From: Mycobacterium sp.
Lineage (GTDB): Bacteria > Actinomycetota > Actinomycetes > Mycobacteriales > Mycobacteriaceae
DNA: 64,000 nucleotides
NCBI RefSeq assembly: GCF_025933915.1
Contig: NZ_JAICZA010000002.1
Span: 1 to 64,000, forward strand
Direction: 5' to 3'
The position numbers were made by a program, and so were the translations under genes. A model generated the notes under the pieces. It was given only the letters and a program-made list of their open reading frames with translations. It had not been told where the DNA came from and did no database searches. Position 1 is the first letter of the stretch. Every line of letters begins with the position of its first letter. Shown in pieces: positions 5,597 through 44,564 of this stretch.

Positions 5597-16681
<11,085 letters not shown>

Positions 16682-17010
16682 GCGGATGTCCTCTCTGCCA
16701 TGGCCGGCAGAGGTGGATCCCCCCGGGCCAGCCTGCTGCTGCCTGGACCGCGTTAGCTCAAACCCAGACGTTGATCGTTCACTGCACCACACCAGCCGGG
16801 TGTACAGCAGAATCATGTCTCGACGGCAAGTGGTGTCGCCGGATTCCGGACTGCGTCCCGCGCCGGGCGCCCATCACCATAACCGGCTGCCGCGCCCGTG
16901 GCTATCGCTTCTGGAGCCCGGCAAGTCGGCGATGGTGATCATCCAAGAGGCTATCTTGATCTCGCCGCCGCGGGACGGGAATCGCAGTCATCCACACCGA
17001 GGAGAAAACA
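16682..17010. promoter_or_regulatory. Divergent control region between pks and papA
   Basis: These 329 bases hold both promoters of the divergent PKS and PapA genes. No ORF is supported. At the left end is the PKS ribosome site (minus strand AGAGAGGA). At the right end is GAGGAGAAAACA just before the papA TTG start. No convincing -10/-35 pair and no StrR-type GTTCGACTG/CAGTCGAAC inverted repeat was found by eye, although the cluster encodes a StrR-like regulator. Confidence 0.6.
16693..16712. repeat. Inverted repeat over the pks ribosome-binding region
   Basis: CTCTGCC and GGCAGAG, seven bases each, are separated by six bases (ATGGCC). On the minus strand the stem lies in the PKS mRNA leader and reaches the AGAGAGGA ribosome site (16688-16695), so folding could limit access. 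The regulatory meaning is inferred and the stem is short. Confidence 0.4.
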
Positions 17011-18417
17011 TTGCGCATCGGGAAAATCACGATCGGTTCAATTGACGACTGGGAGTTGAGCCCCGGCGCGGTCACCTCCTGGCACCCGACGGCTACGGCT
17101 CTTGAAACGGCCCGGGAAGCACCGGTCAGTTCGGTACCCGTCACCTACATGCAGTCCCAACACCTTCGCGGTTACCACGAACGAACGGCCGCCGGCCTCG
17201 ATTACTCACGGCTGCTGGTCGCCACCTGTGAGATCCCGGGTCACTGCGATGTTGAGGTCATGAATTACGCCCTCAACGCATACCTGCGGCGCCACGACAC
17301 ATATCGCAGCTGGTTCGAGTACCGCGGTACCGGAGATATCGTCAGGCACGTTATCGGCGATCCCGCTGATATCGAATTTGCGCCAACCGATCACGGCGAA
17401 ATGGCGATCGAAGAACTCTACGACCATGTGGTGGCCACACCGGATCCATTGCAGTGGGGTTGCTTCAGCTTTGGAATTGTCCAAGGCGAGGACCACTTCA
17501 CGTTCTACGCGAGTATTGATCACGTCCATGGCGACGCGTCGCTGATCGGCATCACGATGCTGGAGTCTTATGCCATGTACACCTCGTTGGCGGCAGGCAA
17601 TGGGCCCCTTGCGCTACCCGATGCCGGCAGTTATCACGATCACTGCCTGCAAGAGCGCGAATACACGTCCACTTTGAATGTCGATTCACCGGAAGTTCGC
17701 GCATGGATTGACTTCGCCGAGAACAACAATGGGAGCCTTCCCGAGTTCCCGCTGCCGCTGGGTAATCCATTGGAGCCCAATGACAGTGCCATGGTCGCCG
17801 AAATCCTGCTGGACACGGAACAGACGGAGAGATTCGAATCAGCCTGCACCGCGGCCGGTGCCCGCTTCATCGGCGGTTTGTTCGCCTGCATCGCCCAGGT
17901 GGAACACGAGTTCACCGGTGCGGTCACCTATTACGGACTCACTCCCAGGGATACCCGCCGCACGTCGGAAAACTTCATGACTCAGGGCTGGTTCACCGGC
18001 ATGGTTCCGATCACCGTCCCAATAGCTGCAGCATCGTTCGGCGAAGCCGCGTGGGCGGCGCAGGCGTCTTTCGATTCGGGTCTGAGTTTGGCGAAGGTGC
18101 CCTACTATCGCGTGTTGGAATTGGCACCATGGTTGGACTGGCCTCGACCAAACTTTCCGGTGACGAATTTCCTACATGGCGGCGCGGCCCCACTCAACGC
18201 GGTGCTCACCGCGGAGTTGGGCGGTGCCAAGAATATCGGGATCTACTCCGACGGCAGGTATTCATATCAGCTGACCATCTACGTATTCCGGTATGGCGAG
18301 GGCACGGTGATGGCGGTGATGCTTCCCGACAACCCGGTAGCCCAAAAATCAGTCACCCGTTATATGGAAGCGATGAAATCCGCGTGTACGCGGGTCGCCG
18401 ATCATGGGAATTGGTGA
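17011..18417 (+). CDS. PapA-family polyketide-associated acyltransferase
   Basis: This 468-residue protein belongs to the condensation-domain-like PapA family, which moves an acyl chain from a PKS carrier protein or CoA onto an alcohol such as a sugar hydroxyl. The catalytic HxxxD motif is visible as HVHGD (His171, Asp175) in a SIDHVHGDASLIG context. The N-terminus (SPGAVTSWHPT, APVSSVPVTYMQSQHLRGY) fits the PapA1/PapA2/PapA3 group of trehalose-lipid acyltransferases. The TTG start at 17011 is supported by GGAGAAAACA directly upstream. The gene diverges from the PKS. Its base composition is visibly less GC-rich than the surrounding core genes, and Asn/Tyr/Phe-rich stretches are common, consistent with transfer or weak codon selection. 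Acceptor and donor are unknown. Confidence 0.88.
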   Translation: MRIGKITIGSIDDWELSPGAVTSWHPTATALETAREAPVSSVPVTYMQSQHLRGYHERTAAGLDYSRLLVATCEIPGHCDVEVMNYALNAYLRRHDTYRSWFEYRGTGDIVRHVIGDPADIEFAPTDHGEMAIEELYDHVVATPDPLQWGCFSFGIVQGEDHFTFYASIDHVHGDASLIGITMLESYAMYTSLAAGNGPLALPDAGSYHDHCLQEREYTSTLNVDSPEVRAWIDFAENNNGSLPEFPLPLGNPLEPNDSAMVAEILLDTEQTERFESACTAAGARFIGGLFACIAQVEHEFTGAVTYYGLTPRDTRRTSENFMTQGWFTGMVPITVPIAAASFGEAAWAAQASFDSGLSLAKVPYYRVLELAPWLDWPRPNFPVTNFLHGGAAPLNAVLTAELGGAKNIGIYSDGRYSYQLTIYVFRYGEGTVMAVMLPDNPVAQKSVTRYMEAMKSACTRVADHGNW

Positions 18418-18540: not shown

Positions 18541-19632
18541 ATGAAACGACTGGTCGCAGCGGCATTCGCGGCATGGCTGGCGGGTCCGGGAGGCGGATTC
18601 GGACCTTGGGTCGCGGGCGGTGACCCTGGGTTTCCATGGACGCCGTCGACCCCGTCTCCGGTGGGCGACGCGGCGACCGCCAGAGTCGTCTATGGGGTAG
18701 GCGGTGCGCGACCGCCGGGCATTCCCTGGTACGAGTACACCAACCGGGCCGGGTCCGGATACTTTCCGAACGCTGAGCGCGACGTCATCGAGTATCCCGC
18801 CGGAGCCCTCTACGGCTGGGTGCCGCAAGAGCTGTTTCCTGGGCCCCGAGACAAAATGACCGTCGGCCAGGCGATCCAACAAGCCACGAACAGTCTGGAT
18901 CAGGCCATTCGGGACGGAGCAGAGCCGGCCGCCGCCGTCGGTTTGTCGCAAGGAAACCTCGCGCTCGATCAGGAACAGGCGCGGCTGGCCGACGACCCGA
19001 AGGCACCACCGCCAGACAGACTGCAGTTCACGACCATCGGTGACCCGGTGGGAACGCACGCGTTCGGGGCGAGTTTTGCGTCCGGCATCTTCAAACCCGG
19101 TGACCGCATTCCGATTGTCGGTTACACCATGCCTCAGCAGGTCGACAGCCAGTACGACACCAACAGAATCGTCGCCGCATACGACGGTTTCGGAGATTTT
19201 CCCGATAGGCCAGACAACCTGCTGGCCGACGCCAACGCGATCCTCGCCTCGACGATCGTGCACACCCCCGCGGCGTTCACCAGGCCGGACGACGTGCCAC
19301 CACAGAACATCAGGACGACAGTCAATGCGCGAGGCGCCAAGACGACGACGTATCTCGTTCCGGTGAACCATCTTCCGCTGACCTTGCCGCTGCGCTACCT
19401 CGGCTGGTCCGACGGTCTGGTAAGCCAGATCGATGCGGCATTGCAGCCGCAGATCGATGCGGGCTATTCACGCAACGACGACGTGCTTTCCAGGCCCGTC
19501 TCCGTGGATCCGGTCAACGGCATGGACCCGGTGGGCATCCTGGGCCCCGCCGCGCGCGATTCCATCGAAAGCTTCGCCGCCCAGGTTCGCGCGATCTTCC
19601 CCCCGCCCGGCTTACCTGGCCCGCCGCTGTAG
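18541..19632 (+). CDS. PE-PPE-domain serine esterase, Chp1/Chp2-like
   Basis: This 363-residue protein has an N-terminal hydrophobic segment (KRLVAAAFAAWLAG) and a PE-PPE domain of the alpha/beta-hydrolase fold. The nucleophile motif is GLSQG, with Ser about 136, preceded by ARVVYGVGGARPPG and YPAGALYGW. In M. tuberculosis, Chp1 (Rv3822) and Chp2 (Rv1184c) have this domain, sit in the sulfolipid and polyacyltrehalose loci and move acyl groups between lipid intermediates at the membrane, working with PapA proteins and MmpL transporters. The setting here, after papA in a PKS block with an mmpL, matches that role closely. The ATG at 18541 follows GGGGGTGGACGG. The N-terminal helix suggests membrane anchoring with an outward-facing catalytic domain. 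Specificity is inferred. Confidence 0.82.
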   Translation: MKRLVAAAFAAWLAGPGGGFGPWVAGGDPGFPWTPSTPSPVGDAATARVVYGVGGARPPGIPWYEYTNRAGSGYFPNAERDVIEYPAGALYGWVPQELFPGPRDKMTVGQAIQQATNSLDQAIRDGAEPAAAVGLSQGNLALDQEQARLADDPKAPPPDRLQFTTIGDPVGTHAFGASFASGIFKPGDRIPIVGYTMPQQVDSQYDTNRIVAAYDGFGDFPDRPDNLLADANAILASTIVHTPAAFTRPDDVPPQNIRTTVNARGAKTTTYLVPVNHLPLTLPLRYLGWSDGLVSQIDAALQPQIDAGYSRNDDVLSRPVSVDPVNGMDPVGILGPAARDSIESFAAQVRAIFPPPGLPGPPL

Positions 19633-19656: not shown

Positions 19657-20652
19657 CTAAACGGTTTCGAACTTATTCGCGACTTCCTGCCAAGCGCACG
19701 CATTCCTTCTGGCTATTTCGGCGACCGTGGCCGAGCAGTGGATCGGAATATTTTCGACGATCGCATTGACGACGCCGATTGCGGCCATGTTCGTCGACAG
19801 TAGTCTCAGGAGTCTGCGGCCCCTGTCGGAGAACCTCACTGCGGGGTCGTTTCTGAGTCGTTGGAGAAGGTCGTGGTCGTGGACCTCAGGAGGCGCGTCG
19901 TGCCGATCGCCGGCGGATGGATCCTCGGTCGGTTGTGGAGCGTCTCCCACCGGTTCGATGCACGAGTTCGATGTCTTACCAAGGCTATCGGGTAGCGGAT
20001 TTTCGCCTCTTTCGAAACGCGCCCGTACGTCGCGCGCAGTGCTCACAGAGACGCCTGCATTGCGCGCTATCTCTCGCAATGACGCGTCGGGGTTTATCGA
20101 TAGGAATTCGGCGGCGCGTCGCCGGCCGTTGATCGGACTGATCGGTCGCGTTTTTCCGTCGCGCCCGAGTCGAACGTCTAATTGGGAATCTTCCTCAGTT
20201 GTACACCTGCGCAACGTGGCTACCGTTTTGTGTGACACCCCTGCGAGCAGCCCGATAGAGCGATCCGAGCGATGGGGGTTCAACAAGAGGATGCGTCGCG
20301 CCGCAGTCTTTCGTTCCGAAAGGGTAAGGGGTAGACCGTGTGTGACATTCAAATGTACTGCGAGCGCGAATGCTTCGGCGTCACTGCCTTCGAAGAACTT
20401 TGCTGCTATTGACTCGTCGCCCCGCAGCTGGGTCGCGCGTAGCCTGTGCACGCCATCGATCACCCGCATCGAGGTGCGCTGAATTACTATGGGAGGCAAC
20501 GGTACCGGTGATTGTGCCAAGATCTTGATGTGGTCTTCGTTCGCTTTGTTCTCCCTAGGAGAGAGTGAATTGTGAATTAACACCACGGAGACATTCTCAA
20601 CCGGCAGAGAGTTCTCTTGAGATAGCCACTCCGCCACCGGACACGTCGGCAT
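19657..20652 (-). CDS. StrR/NovG-like ParB-domain transcriptional regulator
   Basis: This 331-residue protein has an N-terminal ParB/Srx-type fold, including PLPPIVIQRTSMRVIDG and HRLRATQLRG, then NVTHGLPLTLSERKTAA and a helix-turn-helix (RSDRSIGLLAGVSHKTV). A second helix-turn-helix follows (SLREIARNAGVSVSTARDV). This layout and wording match StrR, NovG and Bbr, pathway-specific activators of streptomycete antibiotic clusters, rather than chromosome-partition ParB. It lies on the opposite strand, converging on the Chp-like gene. Its codon use is less GC-rich than core genes. It is the obvious candidate regulator of the accessory block. Targets are inferred; no palindrome matching the StrR consensus was found in the cluster's gaps. 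Confidence 0.75.
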   Translation of the reverse strand: MPTCPVAEWLSQENSLPVENVSVVLIHNSLSPRENKANEDHIKILAQSPVPLPPIVIQRTSMRVIDGVHRLRATQLRGDESIAAKFFEGSDAEAFALAVHLNVTHGLPLTLSERKTAARRILLLNPHRSDRSIGLLAGVSHKTVATLRRCTTEEDSQLDVRLGRDGKTRPISPINGRRRAAEFLSINPDASLREIARNAGVSVSTARDVRARFERGENPLPDSLGKTSNSCIEPVGDAPQPTEDPSAGDRHDAPPEVHDHDLLQRLRNDPAVRFSDRGRRLLRLLSTNMAAIGVVNAIVENIPIHCSATVAEIARRNACAWQEVANKFETV

Positions 20653-21230: not shown

Positions 21231-22289
21231 ATGAGCAACGCAACTACAGACCGTCCGCTGCGGGTGATCCAGTGGACGACCGGCAACATCGGGCGGCGGT
21301 CACTGCACGCCATCATCGGGCGAGGGGACATGGAACTGGTCGGGGTTTATGCCCACGGCGAGGAAAAGGTCGGCGTCGACGCCGCCGAACTGGCGGGCTG
21401 GCCTGAGCCGACCGGGGTGCGGGCGACGAACGACGTCGACGCGCTGCTGGCCCTGGGCGCCGACGCGTGTTGCTATAACCCGTTGTGGCCCAACATCGAT
21501 GAGCTGGTGCGGCTGCTGGAATCGGGTGTCAACGTCTGCACCAGCGCGGCCTGGATCACCGGCGGCAAGCAGACGCCCCAGGACCGCAAACGCGTCGAGG
21601 AGGCCTGCCAAAAGGGCAATTCGACGATCTTCGGCAGCGGCGCGCACCCGGGCATGACCAACATGGTCGGCATGGTGCTGTCCGCCTCGTGCGAGCGCGT
21701 CGACGAGATTCGGATCACCGAGTCCGTGGACTGCTCGACCTACGAATCGGCGGAGACCCAAACCGCCATGGGGTTCTCGCAAGACCCCGACACCCCGGGG
21801 TTGGCCGACAGCGTGCGCCGGGAAAGCGAGGTCTTCGCCGAATCGGCGGCGATGATGGCCGACGCGATCGGGGCGAAGCTGGACAAGATGACCTTCGACG
21901 TCACCTTCACCCCGGCCACCGGTGACTCCGACCTGGGGTTCATGAAGATTCCCGCCGGAACGGTCGGCAGCGTCTACGGCTACCACCGCGGCTGGGTCGG
22001 CGATCGCAACGTCGTCAGCGTCGGATTCAACTGGACCATGGGCAGCCACGTCGTCCCACCCAAACCGCTCGAGCACGGGCACGTCATACAGGTGTTCGGG
22101 CTGCCCAACATGCGCACCGTTCTGCACTGCCTGCCACCCAAAGACTGGACCGAGCCCGGGTTCATGGGGCTGGGAATGATCTACACCGCGATGCCGGTTA
22201 CCAATGCCGTCCCGGCGGTGGTGGCGGCCAGGCCGGGAATCATGACGCTGGCCGATTTGCCGCCGGTCACCGGCCGCCTGGCGCGCTAG
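21231..22289 (+). CDS. NAD(P)-binding oxidoreductase, dihydrodipicolinate-reductase-like fold
   Basis: This 352-residue enzyme has an N-terminal Rossmann domain beginning RVIQWTTGNIGRRSLHAI, a TGNIG version of the dinucleotide-binding loop, followed by GVYAHGEEKVGVDAAEL. The family is that of DapB-like and 2,4-diaminopentanoate-dehydrogenase-like proteins, of which mycobacteria have several with unknown substrates. The C-terminal half is an alpha/beta substrate domain. The ATG at 21231 has AAAGGAG at ideal spacing; the tracked upstream start was rejected. The gene is alone on its transcript, with a small hairpin overlapping its stop. A link to the lipid cluster rests only on position. Confidence 0.75.
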   Translation: MSNATTDRPLRVIQWTTGNIGRRSLHAIIGRGDMELVGVYAHGEEKVGVDAAELAGWPEPTGVRATNDVDALLALGADACCYNPLWPNIDELVRLLESGVNVCTSAAWITGGKQTPQDRKRVEEACQKGNSTIFGSGAHPGMTNMVGMVLSASCERVDEIRITESVDCSTYESAETQTAMGFSQDPDTPGLADSVRRESEVFAESAAMMADAIGAKLDKMTFDVTFTPATGDSDLGFMKIPAGTVGSVYGYHRGWVGDRNVVSVGFNWTMGSHVVPPKPLEHGHVIQVFGLPNMRTVLHCLPPKDWTEPGFMGLGMIYTAMPVTNAVPAVVAARPGIMTLADLPPVTGRLAR

Positions 22290-43460: not shown

Positions 43461-44564
43461 TTACACCGCCACCAGGTCGTCGGCGTGCACGGCGGGCCTA
43501 CGCAGCTCGCCGGGCAGCTCGCTGGTCGAGCGCCCCATCATGGTGACGAGTTCCGTCGCGTCATAGGCGACCACGCCGCGGGCCACCATCGCCGCGTCCG
43601 GCCCGCGCAATTCGACGACATCGCCGCCATAGAACCGGCCGGACACCGCGGTGATCCCCGCGGGCAGCAGCGAGCGGCGTTGCCCCACCACGGCACGCAC
43701 CGCCCCGTCGTCAAGGGTCAGCACACCGGCCGCCTCGGCGGCGTAACGCACCCAGAACCGCCGCGCCGACATCCGGGCGGGCCGCGCGGCGAACACCGTG
43801 CCGACGGACGCATCGGTGAGCGCGGTCGAGGCGTCGCCCGCGGCCGCCAGCAGCACCGGCACACCGGCGTCGGCGGCCAGTAGCGCCGACGACATCTTCG
43901 AGGCCATACCGCCGGTGCCCAAATCACTGCCCGGCCCCGCGATCACGCCGACCAGATCCGCCGAGTCCGCCACCTCCGGGATGAACCGCGCGGCTTCGGA
44001 TTTGCGCGGATCGGAGTCGTAGAGCCCGTCGATGTCGGACAACAACACCAAGGCTTCGGCCCCGACCAGGTGCGCCACCAGCGCCGAAAGCCGGTCGTTG
44101 TCGCCGAACCGGATCTCGTTGGTGGCCACCGTGTCGTTTTCGTTGACGATCGCCACCGCATGCAGGGCACGCAGCCGATCCAGCGTGCGCTGAGCGTTGG
44201 TGTGCTGGGCCCGCATCGAGATGTCGTGCGCGCTGAGCAGCACCTGTCCGACCGTGCGGCCGTAGCGGCCGAACGCGGCGCTCCACGAATTCACCAGCGC
44301 CACCTGACCGACGCTGGCCGCGGCTTGCTTCGTCGCCAAATCCCTGGGGCGACGGGACAATCCCAGCGGTTCGATGCCGGCGGCGATGGCACCGGAGGAC
44401 ACGATGACGACGTCGGTCCCCGCTTTCATCCGCGCCTCGATCGCATCGGCGAGCCCGGCCAACCGACCGGCGTCGAACACCCCGGCCGGCGTGGTCAACG
44501 CGTTGGTGCCCACCTTGACCACCAGGCTGCGCGCATTGCGGATGACGTCGCGATGGGGGCTCAC
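43461..44564 (-). CDS. proB: Glutamate 5-kinase
   Basis: This 367-residue enzyme phosphorylates glutamate in the first step of proline synthesis. The amino-acid-kinase domain occupies about residues 10-255 ([62 protein letters not shown]) and a PUA domain follows ([24 protein letters not shown]). It starts at a GTG whose GTGA overlaps the obg stop, so proB is coupled to obg in the rplU-rpmA-obg-proB unit. Feedback inhibition by proline is a family property. Confidence 0.95.

Follow-up and report, generated by a model that had tools for sequence, protein, structure and literature searches.

A StrR-type regulator gene in a mycobacterial lipid locus

The 64,000-nucleotide stretch of Mycobacterium sp. 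DNA that we analysed (hereafter the window) carries, on its minus strand at 19657-20652, a gene whose product is, as sequence comparison indicates, a StrR-family transcription regulator; partition ParB proteins resemble it by fold only. The gene lies in a lipid locus of the trehalose-polyphleate (TPP) type, and we consider it probable that its product is a cluster-situated regulator of this glycolipid locus, with a putative operator inside its own gene. The family is known; its setting, a mycobacterial envelope glycolipid locus, is unusual.

The reading frame starts with ATG, encodes 331 residues and converges with the end of the neighbouring chp gene. It contains the motifs RVIDG, HRLRATQLRG and THGLPLTLSER. 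Orthologues in six other mycobacteria are 62-83% identical, and dN/dS within the seven-member clade described below is 0.08-0.21 over dS values of 0.5-2, the mark of purifying selection: the frame is thus, on comparative grounds, a conserved gene and not a chance ORF. As noted originally, its codons are less GC-rich than those around it: its GC3 is 0.64, while papA has 0.70, chp 0.76 and pks 0.80, and most of the other genes called in the window have 0.80-0.91.

Naming the protein by single-sequence Pfam and NCBIfam searches was abandoned, as these gave nothing beyond weak matches (ParB_N at E = 0.14 and several helix-turn-helix models between 3e-4 and 1e-3, none of which reached the cut-off). 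Over 95% of its length, the regulator matches Dbv4 of Nonomuraea gerenzanensis (L016) at 38% and a StrR-like gene next to a strB1-type amidinotransferase (L018) at 39%, both with E ≤ 5e-54. We identify L016 as Dbv4 of the dbv cluster because vanY, which is dbv7 (PMC6022936), lies 3 kb away; L018 is flanked by a StrS-type aminotransferase and inosamine-phosphate amidinotransferase 1. With cluster-situated regulators as its nearest matches, the proposed StrR/NovG/Bbr-type identity holds. A six-frame search of plasmid records found homologues in 87 of them, with coverage of 80% or more in 78. Most come from Streptomyces, under the annotation of a ParB N-terminal, HTH or 'streptomycin biosynthesis' protein; the majority of the annotated ones examined adjoin biosynthetic genes. 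The earlier description of the family as normally streptomycete is too narrow, since homologues occur in 45 of the 399 sampled Mycobacteriales genomes. A phage origin of the regulator was considered and dropped: no phage record matched.

The trehalose-polyphleate-type locus

The pks, papA and chp neighbours are as described earlier. A two-module, TPP-type polyketide synthase gene (5597-16816, minus strand) and a papA3-type acyltransferase gene (17011-18417, plus strand), both assigned by domain search and locus comparison, diverge from a promoter region at 16817-17010. They are followed by a chp/pE-type acyltransferase gene with a PE-PPE domain (18541-19632, plus strand), assigned by domain search and from relatives, and, beyond the regulator, by a gene for a DAP_DH_C-domain dehydrogenase (21231-22289, plus strand). 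Judged from relatives, the dehydrogenase most likely starts at 21231 rather than at the listed 20697, which places this start 578 bp from that of the regulator.

By its gene content and order, the lipid locus of the window is TPP-type. In 20 mycobacterial loci lacking the regulator, the divergent pks (minus strand) and papA3 (plus strand) are always followed by mmpL10 and pE; fadD23 is present in about half, and the dehydrogenase, usually directly after the TPP operon, mmpS4 and mmpL4 in most. This papA3-mmpL10-pE-fadD23 order matches that of the TPP locus in PMC10465359. The canonical pks-papA3-mmpL10-pE-fadD23 locus (M. smegmatis MSMEG_0408-0412, M. abscessus) thus has in common with the window the divergent pks/papA3 pair and a pE-type acyltransferase, and in most sampled relatives it is followed by the dehydrogenase that also lies near the locus here. 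It differs in that no regulator is described for it. The window keeps pks, papA3 and a divergent pE-type gene in order and has no mmpL10 or fadD23 in place; its product may therefore differ. The chp protein itself is 80-86% identical to its counterparts in G247 and G265, 64% to a chp protein on contig C82 of the same genome, and 46% to canonical pE.

Contig C82 also holds an mmpL10 orthologue (87% identical) and a fadD23 homologue (64-65%). The mmpL10 gene (L073, G000:C82, 14923-18502) lies beside a fragmentary papA gene and a PKS gene; near it are a chp gene, a fadD and ORF starts that, on a tentative reading, resemble sulfate-activation enzymes. In another carrier, G071, the dehydrogenase gene beside the regulator (L186, G071:C3:278287-279324) carries one in-frame TAG.

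Linkage of the regulator to pks-papA genes

Among 298 mycobacterial genomes, that of the window included, a regulator homologue was found in 12; the match in G270 is weak and partial (E = 6e-4). Seven carriers (the window genome, G189, G030, G071, G117, G247 and G265) form one clade with support of 100/100, and in all seven the regulator adjoins pks-papA genes. In the window, G189, G030, G071 and G117 it fills the slot ahead of the dehydrogenase. In G247 and G265 the dehydrogenase is distant, at 288 and 39 kb respectively, and yet the regulator has remained attached to pks-papA-chp-mmpL10. The sister of the clade is a gene on an M. chimaera plasmid, and the next branch a G207 gene adjoining an NRPS. 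The suggestion that the regulator was acquired is consistent with this plasmid-borne sister, the low GC3 and the patchy distribution; together they suggest acquisition and fall short of proving it.

In most sampled mycobacteria the TPP locus has no such regulator, which is therefore not a general requirement for TPP genes. This absence would also fit a regulator that only regulates itself, or is left over from a plasmid-borne cluster since lost, and that stands by the TPP locus without controlling it, as would the position of the sister gene by an NRPS/halogenase/MmpL cluster and the two TPP-linked carriers, G189 and G030, whose sole near-perfect genomic operator lies within the regulator gene. 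We regard such a bystander as unlikely, though it is the most serious of the alternatives: purifying selection has remained strong over the divergence given above, the linkage of the clade to pks-papA is exclusive and was kept after relocation, and StrR-type regulators usually control their own cluster (PMC10886168). Conserved linkage of this kind speaks for the cluster-specific control of the lipid locus that was originally proposed; the control itself we infer.

An operator-like dyad inside the reading frame

The StrR-family operator consensus, which comes from work on StrR and NovG, is GTTCRACTG-N11-CRGTYGAAC. When the carriers were scanned for the family dyad, the site fell inside the regulators' own reading frames, in the stretch that encodes a disordered linker. 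Among 53 homologues, 18 have a site with at most two mismatches to this consensus; in 17 it falls on identical codons of the alignment, and in the remaining one it is shifted by one codon.

Codon choice was examined by fixing each protein and redrawing codons from the gene's own usage, with no preselection of genes; a version restricted to genes with few mismatches is biased by that choice, and we rely on the unselected one. Over the 53 homologues the outer arms score 281 for symmetry where 185 would be expected (z = 12.1), and none of 44 other registers exceeds |z| 3.2. Such counts are inflated by relatedness, but the protein tree is bush-like and its branches are long. The variable pair of the dyad covaries: it is A-T in 14 cases and G-C in 13, with A/G mispaired with C/T in 3. 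By these measures, the family-wide intragenic dyad is held by selection at the DNA level.

The symmetry could in principle arise from an mRNA hairpin or as a by-product of conserved protein sequence rather than from an operator, since perfect copies could form a 9-bp RNA stem and there is partial conservation of the RST...Q(L/S)N peptide that the site encodes. We consider this improbable. Synonymous resampling with the protein kept gives far less symmetry, as the figures above show; mismatches of the G-U type (16) are no commoner than those of the A-C type (15), which fits DNA symmetry and disfavours an RNA stem; and near-identical sites occur outside StrR-type genes. One of the latter (L143, 1501-1529), a StrR-type operator in a non-mycobacterial genome, precedes an MbtH-like gene by about 130 bp and has two StrR-type regulators in its vicinity. 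Another (L146, 1501-1529; G055:C2:155043-155071) is a perfect StrR-type dyad in a gap that separates two called ORFs of a mycobacterium, on its second contig of 228 kb.

A further 14 plasmid loci had no part in pattern discovery. In 5 of them the intragenic site is the top-scoring one of its locus, and two have an operator-like site within about 50 bp past the gene end. The codon symmetry test on this set (z = 1.4) was misregistered in several genes, and only its site scores are used. Genome-wide, at most one mismatch being allowed, exactly one site was found in each of G189, G030, G172 and G063, inside the regulator in every case; no such site was found in G071, G117, G207, G247, G265 or the window genome.

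The intragenic operator is more surprising than the setting of the regulator, though it is a trait of the family and not of the copy in the window as such. Earlier accounts of such operators may exist: Retzlaff and Distler (1995) may have described intragenic StrR sites in strR of S. griseus.

Operator search in the window

At the StrR-family operator position, 20176-20204, the window has the dyad GTACAACTG-N11-CAATTAGAC (coding strand), which encodes linker residues 150-159, CTTEEDSQLD. It is degenerate, with four mismatches and six of nine outer pairs formed. The codon test gives P = 0.085 for mismatches and 0.04 for symmetry; with a profile built without mycobacterial sites it scores 12.0 bits where shuffled sequence reaches a mean maximum of 10.8, which is not significant alone. 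A looser, clade-derived pattern, drawn partly from this same site, has it as its sole match in the 5.0-Mb assembly.

Binding sites had been predicted in the pks-papA and papA-chp gaps. This did not hold: no StrR-type operator was recognised in either gap or upstream of the regulator, where a diverged site could escape the scans, and the family operator lies inside the regulator gene. A dyad upstream of target genes does not define the protein family, since its more divergent members may recognise divergent sites. Two other candidates were rejected. The classical StrR operator scan of the window gave two matches at three mismatches, which are both orientations of one site and at chance level; this site (44246-44274, profile score 15.6-18.5 bits) lies within a coding region and is probably fortuitous. 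A CCRTACC-N4-GGTAYGG dyad upstream of papA3 was set aside as a target site because its four carriers fall into two closely related pairs and no copy is present in the window. Perfect copies occur in the pks-papA3 gap of these four carriers (L021 at 1307, L022 at 19018, L023 at 1374, L024 at 18723) and in none of 20 non-carriers.

Predicted architecture

We built an AlphaFold2 model of the regulator from 39 locus-derived sequences (mean pLDDT 84, pTM 0.50). An N-terminal domain of ParB/sulfiredoxin fold (residues 18-104; 20341-20601, minus strand, as are all the following segments), predicted by profile, model and Foldseek, carries DGxHRxRA at residues 66-73 and N102. It is followed by a three-helix segment (residues 111-154; 20191-20322) at the position of the ParB-type helix-turn-helix, where Foldseek matches ParB, Noc and KorB, and, after a low-confidence linker (residues 154-157), by a two-strand hairpin with a second helix-turn-helix (residues 160-215; 20008-20175). 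The latter, predicted from the model and the weak Pfam matches, corresponds to the DNA-binding domain described for StrR (PMC10886168). A disordered stretch (residues 227-254) leads to an all-helical C-terminal domain (residues 256-330; 19663-19887).

In a search of PDB folds with the model, Foldseek retrieved ParB, Noc and KorB at E values as low as 4e-7, followed by sulfiredoxin and SbnI; differences in domain placement keep the whole-chain TM-scores low. The predicted architecture agrees with that of StrR: a ParB-like N-terminal domain, two short strands with a three-helix HTH, and a helical C-terminal domain (PMC10886168). The layout of ParB fold plus helix-turn-helix that had been read from the letters alone is thereby borne out by family profile, model and fold search.

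The ParB CTP-clamp motifs GERRxRA and ENxQR are replaced: the family has DGxHRxRA and keeps N102, with the adjacent glutamate gone and R changed to H. Since this glutamate of CTP-hydrolysing ParBs is not kept, CTP use should not be assumed. That the protein is a partition-type ParB or a nucleoid protein with no cluster-regulator role is highly improbable: the predicted fold and the annotation of some homologues as 'ParB/RepB/Spo0J family partition protein' point that way, but solved ParBs match the single regulator sequence at E = 0.18 at best (5e-5 with the family profile), far behind Dbv4 and the StrR-like gene, the ENxQR glutamate is absent, and there are an extra HTH and a different C-terminus. 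Best matches among partition ParBs, the outcome named beforehand as contrary to the original prediction, were looked for; cluster-situated regulators match best. Among the neighbouring genes examined, none bears a ParA-type name.

Proposed mode of action

StrR, Bbr, Tei15* and Dbv4 raise expression of their own clusters. By analogy with them, the cluster-situated regulator that we favour would bind the 29-bp dyad and raise expression of the TPP genes; the target promoters and the direction of control are our reading of the comparison. Of the operators recognisable in these loci, the strongest is located midway in the regulator ORF, and the first site that the protein binds is therefore probably in its own gene. 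From there, a mid-gene site could serve autoregulation, or be a loading or looping point for promoters a few kb away. The operator of the window has drifted, which makes its use less certain there than in G189 and G030. More tentatively, many StrR-type regulators of Actinomycetota may have an operator in their own frame, kept by selection on the DNA where it encodes the disordered linker, and in some mycobacteria without a second near-perfect copy in the genome. The regulator described here may then resemble a ParB loaded at a parS-like internal site and so control the neighbouring glycolipid locus without promoter operators.

How StrR proteins work is poorly defined (PMC10886168), and the family-wide intragenic operator offers a simple, testable handle on their mechanism. 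In M. smegmatis and M. abscessus the therapeutic phages BPs and Muddy depend on TPPs (PMC10465359), which also contribute to the fitness of M. abscessus (PMC11633156); the literature searched contained no description of a dedicated regulator of TPP genes. If a StrR-type regulator governs some TPP loci, some species would turn this surface lipid on and off, and with it perhaps their sensitivity to phages.

Comparison with known systems

Dbv4, of the A40926 cluster, is a full-length homologue with the predicted domain order in common. It is a cluster-situated activator, and its 29-bp dyad, GTCCAR-N17-TTGGAC, shares its frame with the dyad in the window (PMC6022936). It differs in governing a glycopeptide antibiotic, in the lack of an intragenic operator in dbv4 and in belonging to a separate subclade. 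The StrR-like gene L018, on a plasmid of Streptomyces sp. NBC_00853, has a perfect dyad at the same codons, in contrast to the four mismatches of the window, and stands within an aminocyclitol-type cluster.

Nearest outside the clade (support 97/66) is the plasmid regulator of Mycobacterium intracellulare subsp. chimaera (NZ_CP015269.1, L017), mycobacterial like that of the window and with a near-perfect intragenic operator (one mismatch). It differs in being plasmid-borne, and its neighbours, in place of TPP genes, are those for NRPS, halogenase and MmpL. The cluster beside it (L017, 12121-24688) comprises an ACP, an MmpL transporter, an adenylation protein, an acyl-CoA dehydrogenase and a chlorinating enzyme.
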